DNA from: an uncultured Flavobacteriaceae bacterium
GTDB lineage: Bacteria; Bacteroidota; Bacteroidia; Flavobacteriales; Flavobacteriaceae
Assembly: GCA_937923515.1 (NCBI GenBank)
Contig: CALDUF010000002.1
Span: forward strand, 1 to 47,918
Direction: 5' to 3'
Length of the DNA stretch: 47,918 nucleotides
The position numbers and the translations under genes were made by a program. The notes beneath the pieces were generated by a model. It was not told the origin of the DNA, made no database searches, and saw only the letters and a list, made by a program, of their open reading frames with translations. Positions 4,044-40,527 of this stretch are shown here, piece by piece (within the stretch, counting starts at the first letter, position 1; every line of letters begins with the position of its first letter).

Positions 4044-4210
4044 GGCCCGCGTTAGGGATTGCAGCGGCATCCTTTTTGCGATTTTTTATAGGCCAGTGTA
4101 ACCTTTAAAAGGATTTATAGGTGTTGGTTTAAAACCTGAAACGCATTGCATATGCCTCGCAAAAAGATATAGCGGAAAGCCCGACCGTAGCCAAAGCGGA
4201 GGTAACGCCC
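4044..4210 (-). repeat. structured intergenic repeat, copy A
   Basis: Read on the minus strand this 167-bp element starts GGGCGTTACC, carries the conserved junction GTCGGGCTTTCCGCTATATC, then a long loop closed by TTTTTGCGA/TCGCAAAAA, and ends GGATGCCGCTGCAATCCC-TAACGCGGG. It lies 9 bases past the stop of the prolyl oligopeptidase gene and fills most of the 290-base gap to the ABC gene. Related copies are at 6455, 31273, 38634 and 40320. Confidence 0.8.
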
Positions 4211-4218
4211 AAAATAAA

Positions 4219-6381
4219 TTATCCCTTTAATTGTTCATTCGCTTTACTTGGTAAGGTTTTAAAACCCATATTGTAAAGGGTAAACCCAAAAATATCTGCG
4301 TATTGTTCAATGGTTTTACTTACAGGTGTTCCTGCGCCGTGGCCAGCATCGGTTTCAATGCGTATTAACGTAGGGTTGTTACCTGTTTGTTTGCTTTGTA
4401 ATTGGGCGGCAAACTTAAAACTGTGGGCAGGCACAACGCGGTCGTCATGATCGCCAGTGGTTACCAAAGTTGCAGGATATGCAACACCATCTTTAACATT
4501 ATGCACAGGCGAATAGCCTTTTAAATATTCAAACATTTCTTTGTTGTCTTCTGCAGTACCATAATCGTAAGCCCAACCTGCACCAGCAGTAAATGTGTGG
4601 TATCGCAACATATCTAAAACACCAACGGCAGGCAATGCTACTTTAGCCAAATCTGGACGTTGCGTCATCACCGCACCAACTAACAAACCGCCATTAGAGC
4701 CACCTCTAAGTGCTAAATAATTTGAAGATGTGTAGTTGTTATCAATTAAATAGTCTCCAGCAGCAATAAAATCGTCAAACACATTTTGCTTTTGCAATTT
4801 AGTACCAGCAACATGCCATTTTTTACCGTATTCTCCACCACCGCGAAGGTTAGGTACAGCCAAAATACCACCTTGTTCCATCCAAACTGCATTTGTAATG
4901 CTAAACGACGGATTTAAACTCACATTAAAACCGCCATACCCATAGAGTATTGTTGGGTTTTTACCGTTTAACTCAAGGCCCTTTTTGTGCGTAATTATCA
5001 TGGGCACTTTAGTACCATCTTTTGATGTGTAAAACACTTGGTTGCTTACATAATCCTCGCTATTAAAAGCAATAGAAGGTTTCCAATACAGCTTAGAGTT
5101 GCCCGTTTCTAAATTAAGTTTATAAATGCTACTAGGTGTATTATAATTTGTAAACGTATAATAATCGGTTTGCTCCTCTTTTTTAGCGCCAAAACCATTT
5201 GCATTTCCAACACCAGGGAGTTTAATTTCTCTAATTAATGTACCGTTATAATCGTATTGTAACACTTTAGAAATCGCATCAACCAGATATTCCACTATAA
5301 AATACTTACCACTGGTTGATGGTGATAATACGTACTCTGTTTCTGGAATAACATCTACCCAATTATCAGGCGTTGGGTTTGCAGCGTCAACAGATACAAT
5401 CTTCTTGTTTGGTGCATTTAAATTAGTAACCAAAAATAGTTTACTACCCACATTATCAATAACATAAGTATCACTATCGGTATGGTTTAAAACGTTAATT
5501 AATTTGCTGTTGGGTTGCGTTAAATCTTTAATATAAAGTTTATTACCAGAGGTAGAAATTCTTGGTGAAATCACCAAATACCTATTATCTTCGGTAACCG
5601 TTCCATAAATATAACGGTGTTTTTCCTCTGGTGTACCACCAAAAATCAATTGGTCATTTTTTTGCGGCGTACCCAACTTATGGTAGTACACTTTATGCTG
5701 ATCTGTTTTAGCAGATAACGCGCTACCCTTTGGCTTATCGTAACTAGAATAGTAAAACCCTTCATTTTTGTACCAAGAAATACCACTAAATTTTATGTCT
5801 ACCAAAGTATCCTCAACAATGGTTTTACTTTCGGTATCCATAATTAAAATTTTACGCCAATCGCTACCACCTTCAGAAATAGAATAGGCTAAAATTTTAC
5901 CGTTTTTAGAAAAACTAACATTACCTAAAGACACTGTACCGTCTTCCGAAAACGTATTAGGGTCTAAAAACACAGTTGCCGTATCAGGACTTTCGTTTGT
6001 TTTATGACGATACATTACGTACTGATTTTGCAACCCATCATTCTTATTAAAATACGTATAGTCGCCCTCCACAAATGGCGAACCCACCTTTTCGTAGTTC
6101 CACAATTTAGATAAACGCTCCTTTAAATCATTTCTAAAAGGGATGTTGTCTAAGTAATCAAACGTTGTTTTATTTTGTGTTTTTACCCAAGCCTCAGTAG
6201 CTTCACTTCTATCATCCTCCAGCCATCGGTAAGGGTCTTTCACTTCAACTCCAAAATAGGTGTTTACAGTATCAACAGTTTTTGTTTTTGGATAGTTCAC
6301 TACAATATTATTTTTTTCTTGATTGTTTTTACAACCCATTACCACAGTAAAAGTGAGTGCAGTTAGTAGTACTTTATTCAT
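4219..6381 (-). CDS. prolyl oligopeptidase family lipoprotein (S9A)
   Basis: 720 aa serine peptidase that cleaves after proline in short peptides. The N-terminus is a lipoprotein signal peptide ending in VVMGC (Cys 17), so the mature enzyme is anchored in the periplasm or outer membrane. Residues about 30-440 form the S9 beta-propeller, opening with the family sequence DPYRWLED. The alpha/beta-hydrolase domain follows, with the nucleophile in GGSNGG (Ser near 560), the aspartate in DHDDRVVP (near 647) and the histidine in DAGHGAG (near 679). All three triad residues are present and the length is normal for prolyl endopeptidase. It stands alone, with repeat elements on both sides. A peptide-scavenging role fits a proteolytic marine flavobacterium. 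Confidence 0.93.
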   Translation of the reverse strand: MNKVLLTALTFTVVMGCKNNQEKNNIVVNYPKTKTVDTVNTYFGVEVKDPYRWLEDDRSEATEAWVKTQNKTTFDYLDNIPFRNDLKERLSKLWNYEKVGSPFVEGDYTYFNKNDGLQNQYVMYRHKTNESPDTATVFLDPNTFSEDGTVSLGNVSFSKNGKILAYSISEGGSDWRKILIMDTESKTIVEDTLVDIKFSGISWYKNEGFYYSSYDKPKGSALSAKTDQHKVYYHKLGTPQKNDQLIFGGTPEEKHRYIYGTVTEDNRYLVISPRISTSGNKLYIKDLTQPNSKLINVLNHTDSDTYVIDNVGSKLFLVTNLNAPNKKIVSVDAANPTPDNWVDVIPETEYVLSPSTSGKYFIVEYLVDAISKVLQYDYNGTLIREIKLPGVGNANGFGAKKEEQTDYYTFTNYNTPSSIYKLNLETGNSKLYWKPSIAFNSEDYVSNQVFYTSKDGTKVPMIITHKKGLELNGKNPTILYGYGGFNVSLNPSFSITNAVWMEQGGILAVPNLRGGGEYGKKWHVAGTKLQKQNVFDDFIAAGDYLIDNNYTSSNYLALRGGSNGGLLVGAVMTQRPDLAKVALPAVGVLDMLRYHTFTAGAGWAYDYGTAEDNKEMFEYLKGYSPVHNVKDGVAYPATLVTTGDHDDRVVPAHSFKFAAQLQSKQTGNNPTLIRIETDAGHGAGTPVSKTIEQYADIFGFTLYNMGFKTLPSKANEQLKG

Positions 6382-6454
6382 AGTGCCGCTTAAATTTTAT
6401 CAAAAATAGGGCATTTGTAAAGCTTAAACTGTTTAGGTAGTGTTAATATTTTTT

Positions 6455-6547
6455 GGGCGTTCCCCCGAAAAGGGGTCAGGCTTTCCGTTAAAAGTTTTGC
6501 CTCGATGCACGCCTCGGCAAAAGCTACCACTACAATCCTTAACGCGG
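6455..6547 (+). repeat. structured intergenic repeat, copy B (short, diverged)
   Basis: 93 bp. It begins GGGCGTTCC, then forms a small hairpin (CCCC-GAAA-AGGGG), the junction GTCAGGCTTTCCG, a second hairpin (TTTTGCC ... GGCAAAA) and the tail CTACAATCC-TTAACGCGG. Stem sequences differ from the other copies but pair internally. It sits between the divergent upstream region of the peptidase gene and the asd terminator. Confidence 0.72.
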
Positions 6548-6621
6548 TTTTACCAGCCAAAACAGTGGCTTGCCTAATAGTATCAACAGCTTTATTATGG
6601 CCTGTTTAAACCATAAAAACA

Positions 6622-6650
6622 AAAGGCTTCTAAAATGATTAGAAGCCTTT
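6622..6650 (-). terminator. intrinsic terminator downstream of asd
   Basis: Perfect 12-bp inverted repeat (AAAGGCTTCTAA / TTAGAAGCCTTT) with a 5-base loop. On the minus strand a T-rich tract follows. It lies 20 bases past the asd stop. Confidence 0.85.
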
Positions 6651-6669
6651 AAAACCAAACAGGTATTAT

Positions 6670-7659
6670 TTATACTAATTTATTTTCAATTAAATATTCG
6701 GCAATTTGTACCGTATTTGTGGCAGCACCTTTACGTAAGTTATCAGCAACAATCCACATGTTTAGTGTATTGGGTTGTGTTTCGTCACGACGAATACGGC
6801 CTACAAATACCTCATCTTTATCATGAGCAAAAATTGGCATTGGGTAACTATTATTAGCAGTATCATCTTGCACAACAACACCAGGTGTTGCACTTAAAAG
6901 TGCACGAACCTCGGCCAAATCAAAGTCATTTTCAAACTCTACGTTTACAGATTCAGAATGCCCACCAGCCGTTGGAATTCTAACAGCCGTAGCCGAAACA
7001 GAAAACGTTCTATCATCAAGAATTTTTTGTGGCTCTCTAGCTAATTTCATTTCTTCTTTGGTATAGCCATTACCCTCAAACACATCACAATGCGGCAATG
7101 CATTCCTCCCAATAGGATAAGGATACGCCATTTCGCCATCAATACCAGCAATTTCATTTTCTAATTGGCGTACTGCCTTAACACCAGTACCAGAAACCGA
7201 TTGGTAAGTAGATACTACCACACGTTTCATTTTATATTTTTTATGTAACGGATTTAATGCCATTACTAACTGAATTGTAGAACAATTAGGGTTTGCAATA
7301 ATTTTATCCGCTTTAGTTAATGCATTTGCATTAATTTCAGGCACTACCAATTTTTTGGTTGGATCCATTCTCCAAGCCGAAGAGTTATCAACCACAGTAG
7401 TACCAGCTTCAGCAAATTTAGGTGCCCATTCTAACGACGTTCCACCACCTGCAGAAAATAAAGCAATATCTGGTTTCATAGAAACGGCGGTTTCTAAACT
7501 TACAACCGTATAGTCATTTCCTTTATAAGAGATTGATTTACCTACGGAGCGTTCAGACGCTACAGGAATTAAATCCGTTACAGGAAAATTACGTTCTGCA
7601 AGAACTTTTAACATCACTTCGCCTACCATACCAGTGGCACCAACTACAGCTACTTTCAT
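6670..7659 (-). CDS. asd: aspartate-semialdehyde dehydrogenase
   Basis: 329 aa. It reduces aspartyl phosphate to aspartate semialdehyde with NADPH, the branch point to lysine/diaminopimelate, threonine and methionine. The N-terminal Rossmann motif is GATGMVG (7-13). The catalytic cysteine is in NPNCSTIQ (Cys 126), and substrate-binding Arg and His lie in VRIPTAGGHSE (Arg 227, His 234). Length is normal. It appears monocistronic, with its own promoter at 7686-7714 and a strong terminator at 6622-6650. Confidence 0.96.
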   Translation of the reverse strand: MKVAVVGATGMVGEVMLKVLAERNFPVTDLIPVASERSVGKSISYKGNDYTVVSLETAVSMKPDIALFSAGGGTSLEWAPKFAEAGTTVVDNSSAWRMDPTKKLVVPEINANALTKADKIIANPNCSTIQLVMALNPLHKKYKMKRVVVSTYQSVSGTGVKAVRQLENEIAGIDGEMAYPYPIGRNALPHCDVFEGNGYTKEEMKLAREPQKILDDRTFSVSATAVRIPTAGGHSESVNVEFENDFDLAEVRALLSATPGVVVQDDTANNSYPMPIFAHDKDEVFVGRIRRDETQPNTLNMWIVADNLRKGAATNTVQIAEYLIENKLV

Positions 7660-7685
7660 TTTTTTTATTTTAATAAATGCGTCCG

Positions 7686-7714
7686 CAAAACTAAGTATTA
7701 ATTACAATTTCAAA
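7686..7714 (-). promoter_or_regulatory. Bacteroidota-type promoter of asd
   Basis: On the minus strand, TTTG (7714-7711) and TAGTTTTG (7693-7686) match the -33 TTG and -7 TAnnTTTG elements with a 17-base spacer. The -7 element ends 26 bases before the asd ATG. Confidence 0.65.
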
Positions 7715-7719
7715 CATAA

Positions 7720-7754
7720 AAAAAGCCCTCATTTTAAGAAAACAAGGGCTTTTT
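7720..7754 (-). terminator. intrinsic terminator downstream of mscL
   Basis: 10-bp perfect inverted repeat AAAAAGCCCT / AGGGCTTTTT with a 15-base loop. On the minus strand it ends in a run of Ts. It lies about 40 bases past the mscL stop and just upstream of the asd promoter. Confidence 0.82.
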
Positions 7755-7792
7755 AACAACAAATAACAGGTTGTTATATATTTAACATGTTG

Positions 7793-8194
7793 TTACTTTT
7801 TAAGTGCATCTCTAATTTCCATTAGTAATTCCTCTTGAGTTGGTCCAGCTGGAGCCTCTTCTACAGGTTTTTTAGTTTTGTTATAAGCCTTAACAATTAA
7901 GAACATAACAAGACCAACTACTAATAAGCTTATAATTGTATCTATCCAAGCACCATATTCTACAGCTGCAACACCTGCTTCTTTAGCTTCTTCTACAGTT
8001 TTAAATACTTGATCTCCTGGAGTCCAAAATTTATCTGAAAAACTTACGCCCCCAGTAACTAGTCCAATTAGTGGCATAGCAATTTTAGATACGAAACCGT
8101 TAATAACGGCACCGATAGCGCCAGCCATAATAACAGCAACTGCAAACTCAATGACATTTCCTGTCATTATAAACTCTTTAAATTCTTTTAACAT
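7793..8194 (-). CDS. mscL: large-conductance mechanosensitive channel MscL
   Basis: 133 aa inner-membrane channel that opens under membrane tension to release solutes during osmotic downshock. The N-terminal amphipathic segment (FKEFIMTGNV) leads into TM1, rich in small residues (IMAGAIGAVINGFV), as in the family pore helix. A periplasmic loop follows, then TM2 (about 85-104), and a charged C-terminal helix (QEELLMEIRDALKK) that forms the cytoplasmic bundle. The length matches the family. The periplasmic loop carries a short insert (FKTVEEAKEAG). It is followed by its own terminator. Confidence 0.96.
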   Translation of the reverse strand: MLKEFKEFIMTGNVIEFAVAVIMAGAIGAVINGFVSKIAMPLIGLVTGGVSFSDKFWTPGDQVFKTVEEAKEAGVAAVEYGAWIDTIISLLVVGLVMFLIVKAYNKTKKPVEEAPAGPTQEELLMEIRDALKK

Positions 8195-8314
8195 AATTTC
8201 AAAATTATTAGTTAGTGAAATGCTAATTTAAATAAAAAATTAGAAACTTTAACATTTGTTAAGTTAGTTAATTGTGTTTTTTGTTTGAAATTTTATAACA
8301 CCCTGTGTGTTAAT

Positions 8315-9427
8315 TTATTTTATAATTGCCCGTTTTACACGTTGCGAAATGCTAGTAATTAATTCATAAGAAATAGTGCCAGCATGTTCTGCCAAAGTTT
8401 CGGCTGATGTAGTTTTATCATCAAAAATTACAACTTCATCACCTTCTTTACAGTCAATATTAGTAATGTTTACCATAATCATATCCATGCACACATTACC
8501 AATTATGGGTGCTTTTTTACCATTAACAGTTACAAAACCTTTACCATTACCATAAATTCTGCCTATACCATCGGCGTGTCCTAAAGGTAATGTTGCTGTT
8601 TTGGTAACAGCACCTTCACTTTTAAAAGCACGATTATAACCTACCGATTCGCCCTTTTCAATATGGTGAATTTGCGAAATCACCGTTTTTAAACGCGCTA
8701 TAGGTTTTAGGTTTGCGCTTTCTTTTTTAGAGTTTCCAAAGCCATACAAGCCAACACCACAGCGCACCATATTAAAATGTGCTTCAGGATAGTTTAAAAC
8801 ACCCGAGGTATTACACATATGGAGCATGGGTTTGTATCCTATGGCTTTCGAGAAATTGTTGGCTAATGTATTAAATGTATGTATTTGCTCTAGTGTAAAA
8901 TCGCGCTCGTTTAAATCTTCACTAGCTGCCAAATGCGAGAATAAGGATTTTGCTTTTATGGCATTTGTATTATTGAGCATAGCAACTAAACCATCTACAT
9001 CATCTTTTAAAAATCCTAACCGATTTAAACCTGTATTAAACTTTAAGTGAATAGGGTAATGTTTTTGGTTTTTACCTTCAGCAAAAGCAATAAACTCTTT
9101 TAAAATTTTGGCATTATAAAGGTTAGGTTCTAAACAATGCTCTAGTATAATATCAAAATTTACAGCCAATGTGTGTAGTACCAAAATAGGTTTGGTAACG
9201 CCCACATTGCGAAGTGCAACACCTTCATTTGCATAAGCTACAGCAAAATAATCAATATTTAAATCTTGTAAATATTTAGCAATTTCATCAGCATCATTAC
9301 CATAAGCAAATGCTTTTACTACTGCCAAAAAATTGGTGTTGGGTTCTAACTTCGATTTTAAATACTCAAAATTATGTTTAAGTGCTTTTAAATCTATTTC
9401 AAGAATAGTTTCTTGTACTTTAGGCAT
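8315..9427 (-). CDS. alr: alanine racemase
   Basis: 370 aa PLP enzyme that interconverts L- and D-alanine for peptidoglycan. The PLP lysine is in VVKAFAYG (Lys 38) at the end of the first strand of the TIM barrel. The second catalytic base is Tyr 264 in SVGYNRAF, in the C-terminal beta domain. The usual VVKANAYG sequence reads VVKAFAYG here, an Asn-to-Phe change next to the active site. The ATG overlaps the tdk stop by one base, so the two genes are co-transcribed. The gap to mscL (about 120 bases) is A/T-rich with no obvious hairpin. Confidence 0.95.
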   Translation of the reverse strand: MPKVQETILEIDLKALKHNFEYLKSKLEPNTNFLAVVKAFAYGNDADEIAKYLQDLNIDYFAVAYANEGVALRNVGVTKPILVLHTLAVNFDIILEHCLEPNLYNAKILKEFIAFAEGKNQKHYPIHLKFNTGLNRLGFLKDDVDGLVAMLNNTNAIKAKSLFSHLAASEDLNERDFTLEQIHTFNTLANNFSKAIGYKPMLHMCNTSGVLNYPEAHFNMVRCGVGLYGFGNSKKESANLKPIARLKTVISQIHHIEKGESVGYNRAFKSEGAVTKTATLPLGHADGIGRIYGNGKGFVTVNGKKAPIIGNVCMDMIMVNITNIDCKEGDEVVIFDDKTTSAETLAEHAGTISYELITSISQRVKRAIIK

Positions 9428-10068
9428 TAGGATTTCTTTTGTTTAGAAGTCACATCTTCAGCATCTTTCACCTGCATTGTTTTAATTTTTTCTCTCATGG
9501 TAGCTTTGTAATACGCTGCTCTACTTAAAGGTTCGTATTCGTCAACTTCTCCCAACATTACAATGGCATCGTTTTTAGATTTACGGTAACTGTATTGTGC
9601 TAGGTTGCCTGTTTTGGTACAAACGGCATGTACTTTAGTAACATATTCTGCAGTAGCCATTAAGTTTGGCATTGGGCCAAAGGGATTGCCTTTAAAATCC
9701 ATATCTAAACCCGCTACAATAACTCGAATACCTTTGTTTGCCAAATCGTTACAAACCCGTACTATTTCATCATCAAAAAATTGAGCTTCGTCTATACCAA
9801 CCACATCGCAACCATCTGCCAAAATAGGAATATTTGCAGCTGCAGGCACAGGTGTAGAACGTATTTGGTTTTCATCATGGCTTACTACCATATCCTCATC
9901 ATATCGCACATCTACAGTAGGTTTAAAAATCTCAACCTTTTGTCTTGCAAATTGTGCGCGCTTAAGGCGGCGTATAAGCTCTTCGGTTTTTCCTGAAAAC
10001 ATAGAGCCACAGATAACCTCAATCCACCCAAATTGTTCTTTATGATTTACGGTATTTTCGAGAAACAT
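9427..10068 (-). CDS. tdk: thymidine kinase (type II, TK1-like)
   Basis: 213 aa; phosphorylates thymidine with ATP in the salvage pathway. The P-loop is GSMFSGKT (21-28). The DEAQFF block (93-98) supplies the catalytic glutamate (Glu 94). The lasso segment ends in AQYSYRKS, which matches the family thymidine-binding loop. Only one cysteine is left in the segment where E. coli-type enzymes have a C-x2-C zinc knuckle, and the C-terminal tail has no C-x2-C pair, so structural zinc is probably missing. It leads a two-gene operon with alr. Confidence 0.95.
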
Positions 10069-10182
10069 TTTGTAATTTTAACACTGGTACTAAATCAAGC
10101 TACTGCTCGTTTACTATAAAGGTGGCGTAAATTTATTAAAATCAAAAGTGTAAAGCATTAATTTTTTAAAATTGTTTTAATT

Positions 10183-10932
10183 ATGAAGAAGAAGCTAGAA
10201 TCTGAGTTGGTAAGTATAGCCCACAGAATTCTTAAATTAAAAGGGAAAGAAGATGTTTTAAAAATGCATGAAGAAGCACGTGCGCTTTACGAAACACTCT
10301 CTGTTTTAAAATTTGCTCATGAAAATTTTGAAGACGATATACCAACCATAGGTAACAACTCTTCATTTTTTGATATGTTAGATACTACTTTTAATAATAA
10401 AGTAAGCGATACTATAGAGGTTGAAGATAAAATTTACATCAATTTAGATGACGCTGAAGGCGATGAGATTTCTGAACCAGTTATGAATAAAATCAAAGAT
10501 ATGGTAGCATTTATGCCCGAACAAACCGAGCAGGAAAGGGTAGATGACATCATAGAATCTATAGTACCAAAAGAACAACACTTTAAAGGAGAACTGGAAG
10601 ATTTAACAGCAGACTTTAGAGAAATGCCTGTTTTTGAACCTGTTACTAAAGTAAATACACAAAACGGACAAGAGAAAAAGTCCTTAAACGAGCGCATAAA
10701 ACGAGGTGGCTTAAGCATAGGTTTAAACGATAAAATAGCCTTTATAAAACACTTGTTTGATGGTAGTACTGCAGATTATGATCGGGTTATTTCTCAACTT
10801 AACACCATCCAATCTTTAGAAAATGCCAACCAATTTATAGAAACCATCGTTAAACCAGATTATAATAATTGGGAAGATAAAGACGAGTTTTCGCAACGTT
10901 TTATGGAAATTATTGAAGCTAAGTTTAGTTAA
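10183..10932 (+). CDS. conserved hypothetical protein next to tdk
   Basis: 249 aa, cytoplasmic, no signal peptide or membrane segment. I do not recognise a named domain. The N-terminal 45 residues are helical and charged (KKKLESELVSIAHRILKLKG). The middle is acidic and probably disordered. The C-terminal 75 residues (starting RGGLSIGLNDKIAFIKHLF and ending in a WEDKDEFSQRFMEIIEAKF helix) look like a compact helical domain. I recall similar proteins beside tdk or rsmI in other Flavobacteriaceae, but cannot check that here. It is transcribed divergently from tdk across a 114-base gap. Function unknown. Confidence 0.7.
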   Translation: MKKKLESELVSIAHRILKLKGKEDVLKMHEEARALYETLSVLKFAHENFEDDIPTIGNNSSFFDMLDTTFNNKVSDTIEVEDKIYINLDDAEGDEISEPVMNKIKDMVAFMPEQTEQERVDDIIESIVPKEQHFKGELEDLTADFREMPVFEPVTKVNTQNGQEKKSLNERIKRGGLSIGLNDKIAFIKHLFDGSTADYDRVISQLNTIQSLENANQFIETIVKPDYNNWEDKDEFSQRFMEIIEAKFS

Positions 10933-11014
10933 TGCTTCAAAAGATACCAAAGGCGCGTATGTAGTGTTATAAATTATGTTAGCTTTAATGCTGAAAATAA
11001 ATAAACTCAAAATC

Positions 11015-13424: not shown

Positions 13425-13482
13425 AAGTTTCTTTAAATCTCTTTCTTGTGCCTCAAAAAAAGATGCCATTTCAATCATGTTA
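13425..13482 (+). repeat. relic of the structured intergenic repeat (copy F)
   Basis: The stretch containing TTGTGCCTCAAAAAAAGATG and ending ATTTCAATC matches the inner loop and 3' arm of the copy at 31273-31365 (TCGTGCCTCAAAAAAGGATG, then CTACAATC). The 5' arm is badly eroded. It ends a few bases before the rsmI start. Confidence 0.5.
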
Positions 13483-31272: not shown

Positions 31273-31365
31273 GGGCGTTACCCCGCAAAAAGGCGGGGTC
31301 GCGCTTTCCGCTATATCTTTTTTTCGTGCCTCAAAAAAGGATGCCGCTACAATCGCTAACGCGGG
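31273..31365 (+). repeat. structured intergenic repeat, copy C (short loop)
   Basis: 93 bp. GGGCGTTA, a hairpin CCCCGC-aaaaag-GCGGGG, junction GTCGCGCTTTCCGCTATATC, a short hairpin closed by TTTTTT/AAAAAA with the loop CGTGCCTC, then GGATGCCGCTACAATC and GCTAACGCGGG. It gives the most compact form of the family. It lies between the divergent YgiQ and Sua5-type genes. Confidence 0.8.
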
Positions 31366-31416
31366 CGTACTTGCCAGCATAAATCCTTTAAACTTAAATC
31401 ACATCATATTTTTAAG

Positions 31417-32403: not shown

Positions 32404-32479
32404 ATAAAAATTACTTGTCAATTCTTCCCTTTTTTTACTAAAACTCAATAATAACAGTAAGAAATTCATACCCTCAACG

Positions 32480-32495
32480 ACGATACTAGTATCGT
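32480..32495. promoter_or_regulatory. perfect 16-bp palindrome upstream of the beta-barrel/DUF3179 operon
   Basis: ACGATACTAGTATCGT reads the same on both strands and ends 12 bases before the ATG of the barrel gene. It has no T-run and is too short for an efficient terminator, so it looks like an operator for a dimeric repressor. No regulator gene is adjacent. Confidence 0.5.
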
Positions 32496-32507
32496 TTCTT
32501 AAAATTT

Positions 32508-33476
32508 ATGATTTTACAAAGTTTATCTTTAGTAATTATGCTTGCTTGTGCATTTCAATTACGCGCACAAACGTGTTGTTCAGGAGGTATTCCACTTTCT
32601 AACAACGTTGGTATGTCGATTGAAGAAAAAGGCACACTTCAATTTAGTCTTAATTACGACTACAATAATCTAAATACACTTAACAACGGTACAGAACGTT
32701 TAAATGATAATTCTAGACTAAGAATTACACATTCTATTCTGTTTAACGCAAGTTATGCTATAACCAATAGGTTAGCTGTTGAAGGTTTATTTACTTGGGT
32801 AAACCAACGTAGAAACATCTCGCAATTCGGAAACGAAAACTTGGATGTAACTTCTGGTGTTGGCGACGGTTTAGTGTTAGTCAAGTATAATTTTGATAAG
32901 GTTTTAGGTAATAATAGTAATTTAGAACTAGGCTTGGGAGCTAAAATTCCTTTTGGATCCTCAACCGAAACAACCAACCAAGGCATCACTTTAAATGCAG
33001 ATTTACAACCTGGTAGCAACGCTTGGGATATTATATATTTTATTTCGGCTTTAAAACAACCAAAGTTTAGACCTTCTATGTCTATTTCAAGCAGGATAAT
33101 CTACAGAAATACAGGAACAAATACTACCTATCTTAATAATTCCAGCTATGAATTTGGAAATGAAATTCAAGCTTTTTTAGGAGTTTCCGATCAGTTTTTA
33201 GTATTTAAAACCTTAGCAACCCCTAGCCTTTCATTAAAATATCGTGATGCCGATTTAGACCAAATTGACGGTTTTGACTTAGATAATACCGGAGGAAATT
33301 GGGTGTTTATAATTCCAGATTTTTCTATAAACCTAAGTCCTAAACTTACCGTTTCAACACGAGCAGAATTACCGTTATATAGTAATGTAGATGGAACTCA
33401 ACTTACACCAACTTATAGAATTACTACTGGTATTTTACTAAAATTACAACCTACACAAAATATATTTTTAAAATAA
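32508..33476 (+). CDS. outer-membrane beta-barrel protein, partner of a DUF3179 lipoprotein
   Basis: 322 aa. A Sec signal peptide ends LRA-QT. The mature N-terminus starts with a double cysteine in TCCSGGIPLSNN. The rest is a series of amphipathic strands rich in aromatic and polar residues (LQFSLNYDYNNL, SILFNASYAITNRLAVEGLFTWV, GDGLVLVKYNFD, LELGLGAKIPFGS), as expected for a 12- to 14-stranded barrel similar to transporter-type or phenol-degradation (MetA) barrels. The C-terminus (ILLKLQPTQNIFLK) lacks the usual aromatic final residue. It is 7 bases upstream of the DUF3179 gene, so they form an operon. Substrate unknown. Confidence 0.72.
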   Translation: MILQSLSLVIMLACAFQLRAQTCCSGGIPLSNNVGMSIEEKGTLQFSLNYDYNNLNTLNNGTERLNDNSRLRITHSILFNASYAITNRLAVEGLFTWVNQRRNISQFGNENLDVTSGVGDGLVLVKYNFDKVLGNNSNLELGLGAKIPFGSSTETTNQGITLNADLQPGSNAWDIIYFISALKQPKFRPSMSISSRIIYRNTGTNTTYLNNSSYEFGNEIQAFLGVSDQFLVFKTLATPSLSLKYRDADLDQIDGFDLDNTGGNWVFIIPDFSINLSPKLTVSTRAELPLYSNVDGTQLTPTYRITTGILLKLQPTQNIFLK

Positions 33477-33483
33477 TGTAACT

Positions 33484-34542
33484 ATGAAAAAAAGTGCTTC
33501 AGTAATCGTATTTTTTATTTTATTACTATCATGTAGTAGCTCAAATAACACCATACAAGATGAAACTATTGAAAACCAATTTACAGAATGGCTTATTCCC
33601 ATAAACGAAATACGAGATGGTGGTCCGGGAAAAGATGGCATACCTTCAATAGATAATCCAAAATTTGTTGATGCTAGTTCCGCAACTTTTTTAGACCCTA
33701 ACGATTTAGTGGTTGGTATTTTTAGAGATGGTGTTGCAAGAGCATATCCACATATTGTTTTAGATTGGCATGAAGTAGTAAATGATGAGTTAAATGGTTC
33801 GTTTTTCACGTTAAATTATTGTCCCTTAACAGGAACAGCTTTTGCTTGGGAAAGTGAATCAAATAACCAAAGAAGCACTTTTGGTGTTTCAGGATTACTT
33901 TACAATGCAAATCTTATCATGTATGATAGAAATACAGATAGTAATTGGTCTCAATTAGGATTGGAGTGTGTTAATGGTGAGTTAATTAGAGACACACCAA
34001 AATTATATGGTGTTGTAGAAACAGATTGGAACACATGGAGAACCCTTTATCCCAATACCCAAGTTTTAAGTACTGATACAGGGTTTTCAAGAAATTACGG
34101 CGTTTCACCATATGGAGATTATGCAACAAACAATGATAGATTTATTTTTAGGCCAGAAATAATTAATACAGCATTGCCTAACAAACAACGTATTTATGCT
34201 ATTATTGATGATGATAAATCTAAAGTATACCAGTTTTTAGATTTTGAAAATGGAAATGTTATAAAAGATCGTTTCAATGAAAAAAACTATCTTATCGTTG
34301 GTAATGGCAGTTTAATTACGGGGTTTGAACTAAAAGCATCTCAATCTAATCTAGATTTTGAATTCGAACGTAATATAACAACAGCAACATTATTTAAAGA
34401 TAACGAAGGTAACACTTGGTCTGTTTTTGGAGAAGCATTAAGTGGCCCAAGAATAGGGGAAACTTTAACGCCTGTAACATCTGTAATTAGCTATTGGTTT
34501 GCCATTGCTGCATTTTATCCAAACCCTGAGATTTATAATTAG
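33484..34542 (+). CDS. DUF3179 domain-containing lipoprotein
   Basis: 352 aa. Lipoprotein signal with Cys 17 in LLLSCSSS. Recognisable DUF3179 blocks: DPNDLVVGIFRDGVARAYPHIVLDWHEVVND, TLNYCPLTGTAFAWE (Cys 113), FGVSGLLYNANLIMYDRNTDSNWSQL, and WRTLYPNTQVLS. Many DUF3179 proteins have a C-P-L-C-G motif; here the second cysteine is Thr, so a paired-cysteine role is not available. The family has no established function to my knowledge. It is exported, and its tight link to a barrel gene suggests a surface or periplasmic partner for that barrel. Confidence 0.85.
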   Translation: MKKSASVIVFFILLLSCSSSNNTIQDETIENQFTEWLIPINEIRDGGPGKDGIPSIDNPKFVDASSATFLDPNDLVVGIFRDGVARAYPHIVLDWHEVVNDELNGSFFTLNYCPLTGTAFAWESESNNQRSTFGVSGLLYNANLIMYDRNTDSNWSQLGLECVNGELIRDTPKLYGVVETDWNTWRTLYPNTQVLSTDTGFSRNYGVSPYGDYATNNDRFIFRPEIINTALPNKQRIYAIIDDDKSKVYQFLDFENGNVIKDRFNEKNYLIVGNGSLITGFELKASQSNLDFEFERNITTATLFKDNEGNTWSVFGEALSGPRIGETLTPVTSVISYWFAIAAFYPNPEIYN

Positions 34543-34564
34543 TAATTATAATGGAAATTTGTTT

Positions 34565-35626
34565 TTAATTTAAAGTAGTATCCACTGCCTTTATCACATA
34601 CATATACACAGGAAAATGGTCGCTATAGCCATTTGTAAATCCTGAAGAATTCCAGCTTCTAAACGGATACCCTTTATATTTTCCATTAGATGTAATTAAG
34701 TAGTTTTTATTATAAATACCAGCTTTATAATACCTGTAAGACGAGTAATCCTTTTCGAGCAAGGGTTTTGATATGATAATTTGATCAAACAAACTCCAAT
34801 TGTCACGATATGCTGTTGTACCTAAACCTTTGCGGTACAATGTTTCAAAAGGATTGTACAAACCTTTAAAACTAACTTTTTTACGTTTCCTTTCGGTTTT
34901 TAAAGTCTTCTTTAAGCTTAAATTATTAGGGTTATCATTAAAATCGCCCATGATACATATTTTCGCATAAGGATCAGCACTTTGTAAAGAATCTACAATA
35001 CGCTTATTTAATTTAGCGGCAGCAATACGTTTGGGGCTACTTCTTACTTCTCCACCTCGTCTTGATGGCCAATGGTTTACAATAAAATGCATCCGGCTGC
35101 CATCTAACATGCCACTCACCACTAATTGATCTCTGGTGGTAATGCGTTCTCCACTTTGGTCATCGTAAATCTTCAACTCGTAAGTACTCGTATTGGTTGG
35201 AATAAATACATCTTTACGATAAAGCAACCCTACATCTATACCACGAGCATCAGGCGAATCGTAATGCACAATACCATAATCTTTACCAACCATAAGCGGA
35301 TGATTAATGACATCTTCTAAAACCGTTTTATTTTCAACTTCGCAAACGCCAAGTATCGCTGGCGCTTGTTTTGTAACGTCTTTGCCAATTTCAGAAATTA
35401 CACGGGCTATATTACTAACTTTACTTTTATATGCCAACGCTCTCCCCTTTTTCAACTCCATTATTGGGCTGTATTCGTCAAATTTTAGCGGATCGTTTAT
35501 GGTATCAAATACATTTTCTAAATTGTAAAAGGCAATAGTGTGTATTTTAAATTTTTTGTCTTGAGCATTAAACATTATTGTAAAGCTCAAAAAAACTACC
35601 GATAAAATACGCTTTAAAAAATTCAT
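34565..35626 (-). CDS. secreted endonuclease/exonuclease/phosphatase family protein
   Basis: 353 aa. A signal peptide ends FNA-QD, so it is exported. The EEP catalytic set is complete: FYNLENVFD near the start, CEVENK, NHWPSRRGG (His), GDFNDNPNN (Asp and Asn) and YSDHFPVY at the end (Asp-His). This fold cleaves phosphodiester or phosphomonoester bonds in DNA, RNA or lipids. It is divergent from the TonB receptor gene across 130 bases and resembles the cytoplasmic paralogue at 44050-45018. I infer an extracellular or periplasmic nuclease or phosphatase that supplies the receptor. Confidence 0.88.
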   Translation of the reverse strand: MNFLKRILSVVFLSFTIMFNAQDKKFKIHTIAFYNLENVFDTINDPLKFDEYSPIMELKKGRALAYKSKVSNIARVISEIGKDVTKQAPAILGVCEVENKTVLEDVINHPLMVGKDYGIVHYDSPDARGIDVGLLYRKDVFIPTNTSTYELKIYDDQSGERITTRDQLVVSGMLDGSRMHFIVNHWPSRRGGEVRSSPKRIAAAKLNKRIVDSLQSADPYAKICIMGDFNDNPNNLSLKKTLKTERKRKKVSFKGLYNPFETLYRKGLGTTAYRDNWSLFDQIIISKPLLEKDYSSYRYYKAGIYNKNYLITSNGKYKGYPFRSWNSSGFTNGYSDHFPVYMYVIKAVDTTLN

Positions 35627-35670
35627 GAGTTTATTAAAAGTTGCTATTTATTGTAAACAAAACCTAAGCC

Positions 35671-35756
35671 AAAGTTACATGTTTACACTAAAAGTTGTTG
35701 ATTAGTAGTTATTTAAAAAGTAACTTTTAAAAAAATACGTGTCTTAAAAGGTAACT
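35671..35756. promoter_or_regulatory. shared upstream region of nuclease and TonB receptor with repeated GTAACTTT motif
   Basis: AAAGTTAC (35671-35678) is the inverse of GTAACTTT (35720-35727). The latter sits in an inverted repeat AAAAGT-a-ACTTTT (35716-35728). A related AAAAGGTAACT (35746-35756) lies 31 bases, about three helical turns, from AAAAAGTAACT (35715-35725). These could be sites for one regulator of both genes. Confidence 0.35.
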
Positions 35757-38558
35757 ATGAATAAAATAACCCTCATTTTTTTATTCGGACTTTTCTCTAT
35801 GTTTAGCTTTTCCCAAAAGACTGTACTTAAAGGAAGTGTTAAAGATGCAGTATCGTTTCAGCCTATATTAAACGTTACTATCACCTTAGAAAATACGGAA
35901 CTTACAATGTTGTCTGATGTTCAAGGTGAATTTGTATTTAGTGCCAATGTGCCTTTTGGAGAACACGTACTCAAAATTTCTAAAATAGGATATATTACAA
36001 AACGATTCCCAATTATTGTAAACCATGGGCAAACCGTTGATATTAGTGATATGACTTTAGAGCGGGACGTATCGCAAAGTCAAGACTTATTTACCATAAC
36101 ATTATCTGATGATGAATTAGATAACGATGCGGTTGGAGCAGATAATATTACAGGGTTGTTAGCATCATCGTTAGATGTATTTCAAAGAACTGCAGCTTTT
36201 GAGTTTAGCCAGTCGTTTTTTAGATTAAGAGGCTTAGATTCTGAAAATGGCAGCGTACTTATTAATGGCATTCCTATGAATAAATTATTTAATGGTAGGC
36301 CACAATGGAGCAATTGGGGCGGTTTAAATGATGTGATGCGAAACCAGGAATTAGCAACGGGTTTAGCACCTTCTGATTATAATTTTGGAGGTATTTTAGG
36401 CACAACAAATATTAATGTTAGAGCATCTCAAGCAAGACGCGGTGGGCGATTAACATATTCGTCTTCAAATAGAAGTTATACCAATAGGTTAATGGCTACG
36501 TACGCCTCAGGTTTACAAAAAAATAATTGGGCTTATACAATTTCATTAGGGCGACGCTGGGGAAATGAAGGCTACCAAAACGCCACACTCTACGATGCAA
36601 ATTCTATTTTTATAGCGGTTGAAAAAAAATTGAATAATGCGCATAGTTTAAACTTTACAGGCATTTATGCACCAAATCGCAGAGGCAAATCGTCGCCTAA
36701 TACGCAAGAGGTTTTCGATTTAAAAGGTATTAGGTATAACGAATATTGGGGATATCAAAATGGAACACAACGCAACTCCAGAATTAAAACTGTTGAAGAA
36801 CCTATTTTTATGCTAAACCATTATTGGACTATCGCTGCAAACACAACATTAAACACGAACGTAGCCTATCAATTTGGAAAATTAGGTAATAGTAGATTAG
36901 ATAATAACGGCACTGATTTGGTAAACGGCGTGCCAGAAGGCGGCGGTGCAAACCCAAGTGCAGCTTACTACCAAAATCTACCCAGTTATTTTGAGCGTAA
37001 TTTTCCCAACGATTTACAATTTGCGTTTATAGCATTGCAAGATTTTCAAAATAATGGTCAGGTAAATTGGAATCTTTTTTACGAGGCAAATACGGCCAAT
37101 GCCCAAAATGGCGGAAATGCAAGATACGCTTTGTATGAAGACCGTGTGGATGACACCCAATTTACATTCAATTCTATTTTAAGTACAGCATTAAATGACA
37201 ATGGTATTTTAAATGCTGGTTTGAATGTACAAAACTTGAAATCTAAAAATTTTGCTGAAGTTTTAGATTTGTTTGGCGCTTCTACCTATCTAGATATCGA
37301 TCAATTTGCAGAGGATATTAATGAAGCGCAAAACGATTTACAGCGTCCAAATCGTTTAGTAAATGTAGGCGATACGTTTAAGTATAATTTTAACCTGTTT
37401 GCAAACGTAATAAGTGGCTTTGCACAAGCCCAATTTACGTATAACAAACTAGATTTTTTCTTATCTGGAAGCCTTACAAACACAAAATATCAACGTGAAG
37501 GATTGTTTCAAAACGGGGCATTTCCAGATAATTCTTTGGGGAAAGGCGAAACTTTAAATTTTACAGGTTTTGGAGCAAAAGGTGGTGTAACGTATAAAAT
37601 TTCGGGTAAGCATTTATTAAACTTAAATGCAGGTTATATTACAAGAGCGCCATCGCTTAGAAATACGTTTTCTAACTCTAGAGAAAACCACAACGTAGTG
37701 CCAAATATTACAGAAGAAAAATTATTAACTACAGATGTGAGCTATGTATTTAGGTCGCCTATAATTAAGGCAAAACTTACAGCGTATTATACAAAAATAG
37801 AAGATGCTAACGAAATTTCGTTCTTTTTTGCAGATGGTATTGGGGGCGATAATGTGGCATTTGTTCAAGAGATTTTACAAGGTATTAACAAGCAACATAT
37901 TGGAACAGAATTAGGTGTTGAAGCCCAAGTAACACCAACCATAAAATTAAAAGCAGTGGCGTCTGTAGGGCAATTTACCTATGCCAATAATCCTAATTTA
38001 TTTTTAACTACAGAGGCAGATGATGCCTCTATTACTGCGGGATTTGTTGACGGGTTTAAGGATTTTGGAACATCGAATTTAAAAAATTATAAAATTGCAG
38101 CAGGACCGCATAGGGCGTATGCTGTGGGTTTTGAATACCGCGACCCCGATTTTTGGTGGTTTGGCGCAACTACAAATTTTTTTACAAATACATATATTGA
38201 TGTGAGCCCCTTAACACGCTCCTCTAATTTTACGACAGATTTTGATGGTAATGTGTTTAATGATTATGACGAAGATTTAGCCAGAAAACTACTTAAGCAG
38301 GAACGTTTTGACGATTATATGGTGGTGAATTTAATAGGTGGAAAATCATGGAAAATAGGGCGCAAATACATTAGTGTTTTTGCTAGTATTAATAATGTGT
38401 TGAACGCTGTATTTAGAACAGGCGGATTTGAACAAGGTAGAAACGCAAATTTTAGACAGTTGCGCGACGACCAAGCTTTGAATACGCCCGTTTTTGGATC
38501 GAAATACTGGTACGGGCGCGGTGCTACGTATTTTTTAAATGTGAATTATAGGTTTTAA
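35757..38558 (+). CDS. TonB-dependent outer-membrane receptor
   Basis: 933 aa. Signal peptide ends SFS-QK. Residues about 22-105 form a carboxypeptidase-regulatory-like beta-sandwich (GSVKDAVSFQPILNVTITLEN, GEFVFSANVPFGEHVLKISKIGY), common in Bacteroidota receptors. The plug follows (RLRGLDSENGSVLINGIPMN, FGGILGTTNINVRA, about 165-235), then a long barrel to the terminal NVNYRF, whose last phenylalanine fits the BAM signal. The domain layout is SusC-like but no SusD gene is next to it; a DUF5689 lipoprotein takes that place downstream. With the divergent secreted nuclease this suggests import of a nuclease or phosphatase product. Substrate not proven. Confidence 0.93.
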   Translation: MNKITLIFLFGLFSMFSFSQKTVLKGSVKDAVSFQPILNVTITLENTELTMLSDVQGEFVFSANVPFGEHVLKISKIGYITKRFPIIVNHGQTVDISDMTLERDVSQSQDLFTITLSDDELDNDAVGADNITGLLASSLDVFQRTAAFEFSQSFFRLRGLDSENGSVLINGIPMNKLFNGRPQWSNWGGLNDVMRNQELATGLAPSDYNFGGILGTTNINVRASQARRGGRLTYSSSNRSYTNRLMATYASGLQKNNWAYTISLGRRWGNEGYQNATLYDANSIFIAVEKKLNNAHSLNFTGIYAPNRRGKSSPNTQEVFDLKGIRYNEYWGYQNGTQRNSRIKTVEEPIFMLNHYWTIAANTTLNTNVAYQFGKLGNSRLDNNGTDLVNGVPEGGGANPSAAYYQNLPSYFERNFPNDLQFAFIALQDFQNNGQVNWNLFYEANTANAQNGGNARYALYEDRVDDTQFTFNSILSTALNDNGILNAGLNVQNLKSKNFAEVLDLFGASTYLDIDQFAEDINEAQNDLQRPNRLVNVGDTFKYNFNLFANVISGFAQAQFTYNKLDFFLSGSLTNTKYQREGLFQNGAFPDNSLGKGETLNFTGFGAKGGVTYKISGKHLLNLNAGYITRAPSLRNTFSNSRENHNVVPNITEEKLLTTDVSYVFRSPIIKAKLTAYYTKIEDANEISFFFADGIGGDNVAFVQEILQGINKQHIGTELGVEAQVTPTIKLKAVASVGQFTYANNPNLFLTTEADDASITAGFVDGFKDFGTSNLKNYKIAAGPHRAYAVGFEYRDPDFWWFGATTNFFTNTYIDVSPLTRSSNFTTDFDGNVFNDYDEDLARKLLKQERFDDYMVVNLIGGKSWKIGRKYISVFASINNVLNAVFRTGGFEQGRNANFRQLRDDQALNTPVFGSKYWYGRGATYFLNVNYRF

Positions 38559-38633
38559 AAACAAGCCTTATAATTTACCCAAAGGAGAATGTATGAAGCT
38601 GATAAAAAAGGTATAATGTAGAAGATTGATTTT

Positions 38634-38838
38634 GGCAGATGAGACCCGCGTTAGGGATTGCAGCGGCATCCTTTTGTTTTTTTATGAAGCATGCCTAAGG
38701 TGTAATGAAAGCTGTTGCTAGGCTTGTGGATGCCTGCTTTTGCAGGAATGTAAGAAACAAAAGATATAGCGGAAAGCCCGACCGAAGCGATCCTGCAAGG
38801 TTTTTTTAACCTTGTAGGTATGAGCGCAGGGAACGCCC
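38634..38838 (-). repeat. structured intergenic repeat, copy D (left of DUF5689 gene)
   Basis: On the minus strand: GGGCGTTCCCTGCGCTC, a hairpin CCTACAAGG ... CCTTGCAGG, junction GTCGGGCTTTCCGCTATATC, a loop of about 86 bases, AAAACAAAAGGATGCCGCTG and CAATCCCTAACGCGGG, then GTCTCATCTGCC. The loop carries a second small hairpin CCTGC-tttt-GCAGG (38733-38746). Ends are nearly identical to those of copy E in reverse orientation; loops are unrelated. It fills most of the 310-base gap after the receptor gene. Confidence 0.85.
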
Positions 38839-38868
38839 AAAACATAAAATTTATAGAGTATATTAAAA

Positions 38869-40305
38869 ATGCGTGTTATGAGAACAGTGAGAAATATTTG
38901 TATTGGCATGTTAGGTTTATTTATAGCGTCTTGCATAAACGACGACGATTTTGGGGTACCAAATATTACGATTGAAGACCCTACAATTCCAACAGAAAAA
39001 CTAACGACGTTTAAGGCCATAGCATCGCTTTATGAACAAGCTGTAAACGGCGGTAATGCCATTGCGGTGATTGCGGATGATATTTATATTGAAGGTTATG
39101 TGGTATCGACAGACAAAGGCGGTAATTTTTTTGAGGAACTTATTATTCAAAACAAAATAGACGATAGCAACCCAGATAACGACCCCAGATTGGGCTTTAC
39201 GTTGCGTATTAACGTAGCGAGCTTGTCTGACACGTATCAATTTGGTCAAAAAGTTGTAGTTAAACTACAAGGGCTTGCCGTTGGCGAGCGCAGTGGTGTA
39301 CTTACTATTGGTAATGCTGGAGGTGCTGCTGTAAACCAAATTCAAGCTGCGGAATATCGTGCTATTGTGCTGCGTACTAACGACATTGCAGATATACAAC
39401 CTAAAATTATTGGCTTACAAGAGTTGACTGATGCAGATGAAAATACACTAATACAACTCAATAATATGCAGCTTAACCGGTTTGAGTTAGGTGCCACATT
39501 TGCTAGCGAATCGTTTGATGAGTTTGATGGCTTACGGCTTATGGAAAGCTGCGATTCTGGCATTCAAATTATTATGCAAACCAGTACGTTTTCAGATTTT
39601 AAAACCTCACTAGTGCCACAAGGCAAGGGTACAATTACAGGAATTTACAGTAGAGATTTTAGAGATAACTTTAATGTTGTGTTACCTAATAGCGCTTCAG
39701 ATATTGTTTTTGAAAGCGAAAACCGTTGCGACCCTTTAGAGCTCTCCTGCGGTTTAGCCACAACCATTGGCACAACAAATGTGTTGTTTGAAGATTTTGA
39801 ATCGCAAAGAAATAACAGACCTATAGAAATTGAGGGTTGGACCAATTACAGTGAAACGGGCACCCAAGCTTGGGAAGGTTTTTCCTCAACATCCTCAAAC
39901 GCCTCATTAGGGCGGTCTTGTAGGTTTCAATCGGCCAGCTCTGGCGATGAGAGTAACATTGGTTGGTTAATTACACCAGCACTAAATTTAGATGCACAAA
40001 ATGGAGCATCATTACGTTTTAAAACATCAAATAGTTTGGCAGACAGTAGCTATATGGAAGTGTTTTTTGCTAGCGATTGGGATGGTACCCAAGCTGGCGT
40101 TACAAGCGCCACTTGGCAAATTTTAAGCGATGCTTATGTTGTAAAAGACTCTGATGCGTTTTCGGAATGGTTTAGCTCTGGAAATGTAGATTTGTCCTGT
40201 ATTTCAGGAACCATTCATATTGCATTTAAATACACAGGAAGCGGGCAATCCAGCTTTGATGGCGTGTACGAGTTAGATGAAATTAGTGTAGATTACCTGC
40301 CGTAA
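38869..40305 (+). CDS. DUF5689 (OB-like) lipoprotein with C-terminal jelly-roll domain
   Basis: 478 aa. Lipoprotein signal ending FIASC (Cys 22), then an acidic NDDD export-type tail suited to surface lipoproteins. Residues about 45-155 (IEGYVVSTDKGGNFFEELIIQN, LRINVASLSDTYQFGQKVVVKLQGL) match DUF5689, whose strand pattern looks like an OB fold. Residues about 305-478 (LFEDFESQRNNRPIEIEGWTNY ... SSFDGVYELDEISVDYLP) are a choice-of-anchor-J/cleaved-adhesin-like jelly roll. The start could also be the ATG 9 bases later. It lies after the TonB receptor and between two inverted repeat copies. I infer a surface substrate-binding partner of the receptor. Confidence 0.85.
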   Translation: MRVMRTVRNICIGMLGLFIASCINDDDFGVPNITIEDPTIPTEKLTTFKAIASLYEQAVNGGNAIAVIADDIYIEGYVVSTDKGGNFFEELIIQNKIDDSNPDNDPRLGFTLRINVASLSDTYQFGQKVVVKLQGLAVGERSGVLTIGNAGGAAVNQIQAAEYRAIVLRTNDIADIQPKIIGLQELTDADENTLIQLNNMQLNRFELGATFASESFDEFDGLRLMESCDSGIQIIMQTSTFSDFKTSLVPQGKGTITGIYSRDFRDNFNVVLPNSASDIVFESENRCDPLELSCGLATTIGTTNVLFEDFESQRNNRPIEIEGWTNYSETGTQAWEGFSSTSSNASLGRSCRFQSASSGDESNIGWLITPALNLDAQNGASLRFKTSNSLADSSYMEVFFASDWDGTQAGVTSATWQILSDAYVVKDSDAFSEWFSSGNVDLSCISGTIHIAFKYTGSGQSSFDGVYELDEISVDYLP

Positions 40306-40319
40306 CATACTTAAAATTT

Positions 40320-40527
40320 GGGCGTTCCCTGCGCTCATACCTACAAGGTTAAAAAAAACCTTGCAGGATCGCTTCGGTCGGGCTTTTCGCTATATCTTTT
40401 GTTTTTATTTTTTCTACCAATGCAAAATCCGTAACACTAATTTATAGCTTTCAATAATTGTTAGTCTGTTTTCATTTAAAAAAACAAAAGGATGCCGCTG
40501 CAATCCCTAACGCTGGTCTCATCTGCC
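40320..40527 (+). repeat. structured intergenic repeat, copy E (right of DUF5689 gene)
   Basis: Same ends as copy D but in inverted orientation, beginning 14 bases past the DUF5689 stop. GGGCGTTCCCTGCGCTC, hairpin CCTACAAGG ... CCTTGCAGG, junction GTCGGGCTTTTCGCTATATC, a loop of about 98 bases closed by CTTTTGTTTTT / AAAAACAAAAG, then GGATGCCGCTGCAATCCC-TAACGC and GGTCTCATCTGCC. Confidence 0.85.

Follow-up and report, generated by a model that had tools for sequence, protein, structure and literature searches.

Copies of a family of structured intergenic repeats in Bacteroidota can keep their chromosomal sites while their terminal hairpins are replaced. The copies from which the analysis set out lie in contig CALDUF010000002.1 of an uncultured Flavobacteriaceae bacterium (assembly GCA_937923515.1); positions 1 to 47,918 of the forward strand form the 47,918-nucleotide window analyzed here. 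The window repeats belong to Flavo-1 (Rfam RF01705), a comparison proposed in an earlier interpretation made from the letters alone (hereafter the sequence-only reading). Comparison of orthologous sites in close species shows that copies persist in place while stem II, the terminal stem-loop, is exchanged as a unit, sometimes together with the inner part of the arm that carries it; this in-place replacement was not foreseen by that reading. On balance, Flavo-1 is probably a structured DNA repeat of the chromosome, non-autonomous, in which copies with arms in common exchange modules by way of single-stranded intermediates.

Rfam matches all five window copies, each on the strand opposite to that on which the sequence-only reading had described them; the former is here called the Flavo-1 strand and the latter the complementary strand. 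Written on the complementary strand, a type 1 element runs from a T-rich end through GGGCGTTA, an optional stem I, GTCGGGCTTTCCGCTATATC, stem II, and GGATGCCGCTGCAATCCC to a terminal TAACGC. A second end type, AGGAGCTATTCCCGC...CGGGGCTA, leaves the interior unchanged and, by reading, is usual in genomes G040 and G048 and in the large genus g46. The fold of a copy can be represented by a junction that joins P1 (GCGTT/AACGC or a variant), the optional stem I, and a long imperfect arm, within which P2, an internal loop, two pairs, a second internal loop, a short helix, and stem II follow in that order.

Replacement is seen between two close species, G083 and G456, for which 4.4 kb surrounding one locus show 96% identity. 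Of 25 Flavo-1 matches in G083 (per-genome element counts are taken from the first 150 candidates each and are lower bounds), 17 lie in loci (L numbers below) that match a G456 element locus, and 16 of these match on both sides; L286/L289, where the match is mainly one-sided, was left out of the orthologous pairs. Across the 16 pairs, the stem-loop is replaced in five and is the same with few changes in 11. Paired changes occur among the same-module pairs, from G-C to A-T in L288/L311 and from ATC/GGAT to ATT/AGAT in L298/L313; in L316, the left P1 strand is gone through a small deletion. In the five replaced pairs (L280/L277, L282/L273, L284/L320, L305/L322, and L271/L329), the new stem-loop still pairs, and the 100-base flanks are 87–100% identical over aligned positions, with right-side indels in several. 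Replacement is centered on the hairpin tip and reaches to different depths: in L280 and L305 it is confined to the tip, in L282 and L271 it takes in the inner arm as well, and in L284 it covers almost all of the element. Both arms are identical in L280/L277, where the tip alone is different; in L305/L322, one base differs in each arm and the tip is different. Of eight modules queried, four (L271, L280, L282, and L284) have copies 90–94% alike elsewhere in both genomes.

The exchanged unit is part of a fold for which covariation provides the evidence: P1, P2, the arm pairs, and stem II all covary. Five P1 pairs are Watson–Crick in 63–65 of 66 type 1 elements, a set for which nine start-motif positions were required to match and pairing was not; covarying types occur at four of the five, and a sixth position pairs in 41 of the 66. 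Observed forms of P1 include GCGTT/AACGC, GCATT/AATGC, GCGTG/CACGC, GCGCA/TGCGC, GTGTT/AACAC, and GTATT/AATAC. The arm on the Flavo-1 strand contains a 3x3 internal loop, GNA/GNA, in 195 of 209 elements, and the CAATC class has a second such loop in 66 of 68, though the search pattern partly dictates both counts (TNC/TNC on the complementary strand). In all but 5 of the 209 elements, the type of the left inner module agrees with that of the right one.

A further view comes from a single intergenic site, the gap between genes read from their proteins as HMG-CoA reductase and GHMP kinase, which was reached via these flanking genes in the best 30 of 199 genomes. By pattern, 14 of the 30 species have an element with an intact core at this site; by reading, 12 have another repeat, and four (L244, L249, L252, and L254) have damaged elements that were left out of the pairing count. 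For three arm pairs in the 14 intact elements, 40 of 42 cells are Watson–Crick, compared with a permuted mean of 22.0, a result equaled in none of 20,000 permutations; both exceptions are G·U on the Flavo-1 strand. In a second set of 69 distinct elements from named genomes, picked by left arm alone (83 arms minus 14 duplicates), 202 of 207 cells pair, against 116.3 on permutation, with none of 10,000 permutations as good. No pairing filter was applied to either set, but core letters were required, and the permutations ignore relatedness. The sequence-only reading had taken different sequences that still pair as a sign of selection on structure or of spread as a single-strand hairpin, and covariation this far above the permutation controls supports selection on the structure or its mechanical maintenance. 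Stem-loops are distinct in 60 of the 69 elements, and the 14 intact elements of the HMG-CoA reductase gap contain 13 different ones, whose stems include GTGGCG/CGCCAC, GTGCCG/CGGCAC, GTCTCG/CGAGAC, and CTTTTT/AAAAAG. As a separate observation made by eye, a small palindrome, CCCGA...TCGGG, recurs in hairpin tips or arms (L247, L249, L265, L305, L323, and L345), in the manner of an independently mobile tip.

Minimum free energy was considered as evidence for structure and set aside, being weak for the window copies: with RNA parameters, z-scores of the five against dinucleotide shuffles lie between +0.5 and −1.7, and with DNA parameters between +0.1 and −3.3. Covariation, not folding energy, is what supports the structure.

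Mismatches within stem II bear on which strand matters. On the complementary strand, isolated stem II mismatches in a first set comprise 17 A·C, 3 G·T, and 18 others; candidates with a pairing score below 8/10 had been dropped beforehand, so that arm-pair counts are biased towards pairing, while stem II pairs beyond the fourth are unaffected. The 69-element set adds 5 A·C, 1 G·T, and 5 others. Two-sided sign tests give 0.0026 for 17 versus 3 and 0.0005 for 22 versus 4. An A·C mismatch on the complementary strand corresponds to G·U on its partner, so that the Flavo-1 strand tolerates wobble. This strand is also predicted to be more stable than its complement in 158 (RNA parameters) or 182 (DNA parameters) of the 209 elements of the pairing-filtered set. 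The single-stranded form of the Flavo-1 strand thus seems to be what matters.

A preference for one strand fits RNA and single-stranded DNA equally. Flavo-1 could accordingly be a structured small RNA, read from the Flavo-1 strand and present as numerous paralogs per genome whose stems vary in the usual way; the strong covariation and the wobble on that strand agree with such an RNA, the Rfam type of the family is small RNA gene, and Flavo-1 appears in Weinberg et al. (2010) as a probable RNA that is not cis-regulatory (PMC2864571). We nevertheless regard this as unlikely. Among 129 elements classified by orientation (orthologous repeats of one site were omitted, as were elements lacking two neighboring open frames within 600 bases), those in tandem arrangements point with their neighbors in 57 cases and against them in 34 (p 0.02), a weak bias, while 20 are convergent and 18 divergent. 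A 2021 transcriptome of Flavobacterium psychrophilum reports Flavo-1 copies that are sense or antisense to transcribed regions without distinction, and many that lie elsewhere; neither strand nor transcription is consistent, and no function is assigned (PMC9723704). Additionally, copies are present or absent and modules are swapped between close species. The evidence here favors a module-swapping DNA repeat over the small RNA gene of the Rfam classification.

Several results weigh against the exchange of modules between copies as single-stranded DNA. RNA would be expected to tolerate G·U just as well; related copies are among the elements counted for mismatches, 14 of 159 coming from one orthologous site, and nearly half of the stem II mismatches are of other kinds; and the copy at 31273 folds more stably on the complementary strand than on the Flavo-1 strand. 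Most collected elements came from a structure-based model, and the set of 209 was filtered on pairing. With respect to donors, the L320 and L329 modules have no close relative besides themselves, and among the collected copies an exact same-genome copy of a replaced module was found for one module only, common to L273 and L277. Neither a clean empty site nor a target duplication was seen at nine G083/G456 sites that were compared. L293 corresponds to a gap in G083 that is a deletion at a 4-base repeat and therefore reflects loss, not gain; L281 and L326 have an unrelated palindrome in the other species; L325 and L291 correspond to altered copies; and in the other four alignments (L287, L315, L323, and L296) the other side is unmatched or of different sequence, and thus uninformative. 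Spread by insertion is accordingly something that we infer from the scattered copies and did not observe, and the suggestion of the sequence-only reading that copies spread as a single-strand hairpin gains no support from these sites, nor was an enzyme found. Replacement by unrelated palindromes is the strongest of the contrary results: copying from another Flavo-1 copy cannot explain the palindromes at L281 and L326, which need either independent insertion or a looser process.

Such sites lend themselves to an account without in-place exchange, in which intergenic hot spots are repeatedly emptied and then refilled by independent insertions of different hairpin repeats. Flavo-1 in one species and an unrelated palindrome in the other is what this would produce at L281 and L326. 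By reading, an unrelated hairpin repeat, AAATTCCAA...TTGGAATTT, fills the HMG-CoA reductase/GHMP kinase gap in 12 of 30 species (L243, L245, L248, L251, L255, L257, L258, L260–L262, L264, and L266). Similarly, the genes bordering the window gap at 38558–38869, which holds one Flavo-1 copy, are adjacent in all 11 genus relatives; by reading, the element is missing from each, and several of these relatives have other palindromic repeats there; in the next gap, an apparent decayed element is present in both relatives that are readable across it (G003 and G007). Refilling is poorly compatible, however, with L280/L277 and L305/L322, which keep their arms and change the tip as a new insertion would not do, or with the unmoved site and outer flanks in all five replacements, and we think it unlikely.

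Exchange of modules between copies could proceed as follows. The Flavo-1 strand may become exposed as single-stranded DNA, in a lagging-strand gap or during repair, and a nascent or broken strand could then copy the apex from another copy with a common flanking arm. An apex copied from an arm-sharing copy would yield a replacement that is symmetrical about the hairpin tip and in which pairing is kept. As a guess, a factor recognizing the folded strand would keep the core from changing and might have been the agent of spread as well. A more specific proposal, which we offer tentatively, is that Flavo-1 copies are substrates of an undescribed single-strand hairpin recombination in Bacteroidota, one that would exchange hairpin modules at unchanging chromosomal sites, symmetrically about the tip and without loss of pairing, take other Flavo-1 copies or at times unrelated palindromes as donors, and recognize the constant internal-loop core.

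The Flavo-1 set of the window consists of five copies and a relic, as follows (strands are those of the sequence-only reading, with Rfam scores and strands where available).

4044 to 4210, minus strand: copy 1, with type 1 ends and stem II TTTTTGCGA/TCGCAAAAA; RF01705 48.8 bits, plus strand, 4040–4190.
6455 to 6547, plus strand: copy 2, with a diverged inner module (AAAAG/AGCTACC class); RF01705 36.9 bits, below the gathering score of 42.
6455 to 6547, plus strand: stems of copy 2, stem I CCCC/GGGG and stem II TTTTGCC/GGCAAAA.
13425 to 13482, plus strand: relic, comprising stem II and the right arm of an element, from alignment to the 31273 copy.
31273 to 31365, plus strand: copy 3, with the shortest loop, between two divergent open frames; RF01705 51.5 bits, minus strand, 31293–31371.
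31275 to 31280, plus strand: left P1 strand of copy 3, GCGTTA, from sequence and P1 covariation.
31281 to 31298, plus strand: stem I of copy 3, CCCCGC..GCGGGG.
31298 to 31317, plus strand: left arm of copy 3 (GTCGCGCTTTCCGCTATATC).
31318 to 31338, plus strand: stem II and loop of copy 3.
31339 to 31362, plus strand: right arm of copy 3, ending in the right P1 strand TAACGC at 31357–31362.
38634 to 38838, minus strand: copy 4, with stem I and arms as in copy 5 and a different long loop; RF01705 49.9 bits, plus strand.
40320 to 40527, plus strand: copy 5, forming an inverted pair with copy 4 around the open frame 38869–40305; RF01705 51.5 bits, minus strand.

The coordinates and strands given for the five copies by the sequence-only reading hold, as do the coordinates of the relic. 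Four of the five copies exceed the gathering score of 42 bits (48.8–51.5 bits), placing them in the same sequence family as Flavo-1, and the remaining copy (Rfam match 6470–6553) scores 36.9 bits with an E-value of 2.4e-4. In the 76-position Rfam model, P1 is unpaired and stem I is lacking; the element described here is larger. The motifs said to be shared by all copies do recur far above expectation, with four window matches at up to three mismatches for the 24-base end motif (0.00 expected) and four for the 20-base middle motif (0.01 expected), but they are not common to all. Exact middle motifs occur in two of five copies (4044 and 38634) and one-base variants in two more; exact end motifs occur in three of five, and the 31273 copy departs from the end motif at two bases. 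In the 6455 copy both motifs are diverged, the middle one reading GTCAGGCTTTCCGTTAAAAG. Likewise, three forms had been given for stem I, and that of the 4044 copy is none of them. The relic and the 31273 copy are equal at 35 of 43 aligned bases, a score reached by 0 of 2000 two-base-block shuffles; it is the top non-copy stretch of the window in a scan by 20-base steps and is absent from the Rfam matches at E ≤ 1. The open frame between copies 4 and 5 adjoins the same neighbor gene in 11 of 11 genus relatives, and with gene and neighbor kept in all of them, the gene itself does not look mobile.

Beyond the window, the source genome (2.71 Mb, 87.6% complete) contains at least 60 matches at E ≤ 0.001, of which 32 exceed the gathering cutoff; this is a lower bound, with 150 of 576 candidates scored and the window copy at 40320 missing from the list. 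A search of relatives recovered matches in 37 of 60 genomes, the source genome included, with maxima of 38 in that genome and 37 in G005. Phylum-wide, under stricter filters and with 11 candidates scored per genome, matches were found in 57 of 395 genomes, again including the source. A scan for the left arm alone, in which 80 of 118 stretches were examined, includes among the matches listed copies in Flavobacterium, Chryseobacterium, Kaistella, Epilithonimonas, Sphingobacterium, and Parapedobacter, as well as in Aquimarina, Winogradskyella, Mariniflexile, Lacinutrix, Tenacibaculum, Aureivirga, and others. Three left arms lie inside 3.9 kb of one metagenome contig (L433). Two queries of a plasmid collection and one query of a phage collection returned no Flavo-1 match; in IMG/VR, one exact pattern was found in a single contig and another in none. 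Genome G391 has a single Flavo-1 match, where the other g46 genomes listed match with 11 of 11 scored candidates (match-free genomes are not all listed), and might serve as a natural control in the search for the missing factor.

The search for a mobilizing agent bears on two further explanations. Short inverted ends and many copies are features of a miniature inverted-repeat transposable element of an ordinary DD(E/D)-type insertion sequence. In Flavo-1, though, the ends vary with compensation (in P1 and between end types) while the interior is constant, the reverse of such an element, and the nine sites compared above include neither a target duplication nor a clean empty site. Additionally, of 84 left arms scanned for long gene-bearing forms, 83 are followed by a right arm after 7 to 82 bases and the 84th is cut off by a contig edge, so that no gene-bearing form was found with the right arm sought within 320 bases. 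The possibility, raised by the sequence-only reading, that an insertion sequence accounts for all copies thus receives no support, although no collection of insertion-sequence ends was searched, and derivation from such a sequence is very improbable.

The second explanation, also suggested for comparison by the sequence-only reading, is a palindrome of the repetitive extragenic palindromic (REP) or REPIN type, moved by a Y1 (REP-associated tyrosine, RAYT or TnpA-REP) transposase. Flavo-1 is similarly extragenic, palindromic, non-autonomous, present in many copies without a gene of its own, and dependent on the fold of one strand, and Y1 proteins of about 185 amino acids are common in these genomes. 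From their YIHNNP motif, these proteins resemble Bacteroidetes subclass 2.6 TnpA-REP. Members of that subclass are described as flanked by atypical structures (PMC6006769). Six element-rich relatives (G003, G011, G014, G016, G028, and G037), which hold 9–23 Flavo-1 matches, gave no match to PF01797 (Y1) at E ≤ 0.001, although a diverged Y1 could escape this search. Around 20 Y1 loci, no Flavo-1 element was found by sequence pattern within about 1.7–2.5 kb on either side. By reading of 14 loci, the 185-amino-acid Y1 genes are instead flanked by different palindromes of their own (L073–L090), such as GCTAGCGCTCGTTTGTAACGAGTGCCGT; L081 has a 28-base inverted repeat around the gene. Base frequencies at 57 right and 54 left ends in the source genome reveal no GTAG/CGTC tag beyond the element's own ends. 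With no tie between Flavo-1 and the local Y1 genes in the family searches, the 20 neighborhoods, or the palindromes of the Y1 genes themselves, mobilization by RAYT was rejected as a working idea and is, in our view, quite doubtful. Flavo-1 also differs from REP and REPIN elements in its larger size and in its junction and internal-loop core, and no tag tetranucleotide was recognized in it. CGTC-tagged REPs, reported in a 2013 survey from Bacteroidetes among other phyla and without a dedicated transposase (PMC3733652), are single hairpins with stems of 8–9 bp and loops of 4–5 bases, whereas Flavo-1 is multi-stem.

Other observations were made during these searches. CCCGCT-like starts on some Y1 units, as in Flavo-1 with the second end type, were noted by eye only and dropped. 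One 493-amino-acid frame (L060 1482–2961, G000:C24) appears from its sequence to join a Y1-transposase-like domain to a putative HemF-type coproporphyrinogen oxidase, and frames of 517–530 amino acids with the same Y1 match are present in G002, G009, and G010. In G048, six of seven similar copies (L153–L159) lie, by eye, directly behind an intrinsic terminator, and much of the right flank of about 100 bases is conserved in most. Terminator targeting as a general rule was rejected: under a strict hairpin rule, 4 of 146 copies follow a terminator, compared with 53 of 2413 control places. The idea of a small protein encoded across the G048 copies was likewise rejected, since by eye the frame is not kept between copies.

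Two known systems offer structural comparisons. Integron attC sites, at which recombination acts on folded single-stranded DNA, combine a stem that is constant and imperfect with a tip that varies; the likeness to Flavo-1 is one of analogy only, and the terminal GTT/AAC order is inverted in Flavo-1. BOX elements of Streptococcus pneumoniae are modular intergenic stem-loop repeats with a variable middle; these vary the number of middle modules, whereas Flavo-1 replaces the middle hairpin. The family has been described before; within the reach of the literature searched, P1 together with stem I appears to be new, as does the in-place exchange. No account of Flavo-1 module exchange was found in that literature (subscription papers and supplements lay outside it), nor were the element's own motifs found in the papers listed, whose matches were to a 10-base term only.

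If Flavo-1 is a DNA repeat that swaps its hairpins without moving, covariation alone would not prove it to be an RNA. The orthologous copies of closely related species would then be natural experiments on hairpin replacement in bacterial chromosomes, and the responsible factor or repair route should exist and be searchable in ordinary laboratory strains of Flavobacterium.

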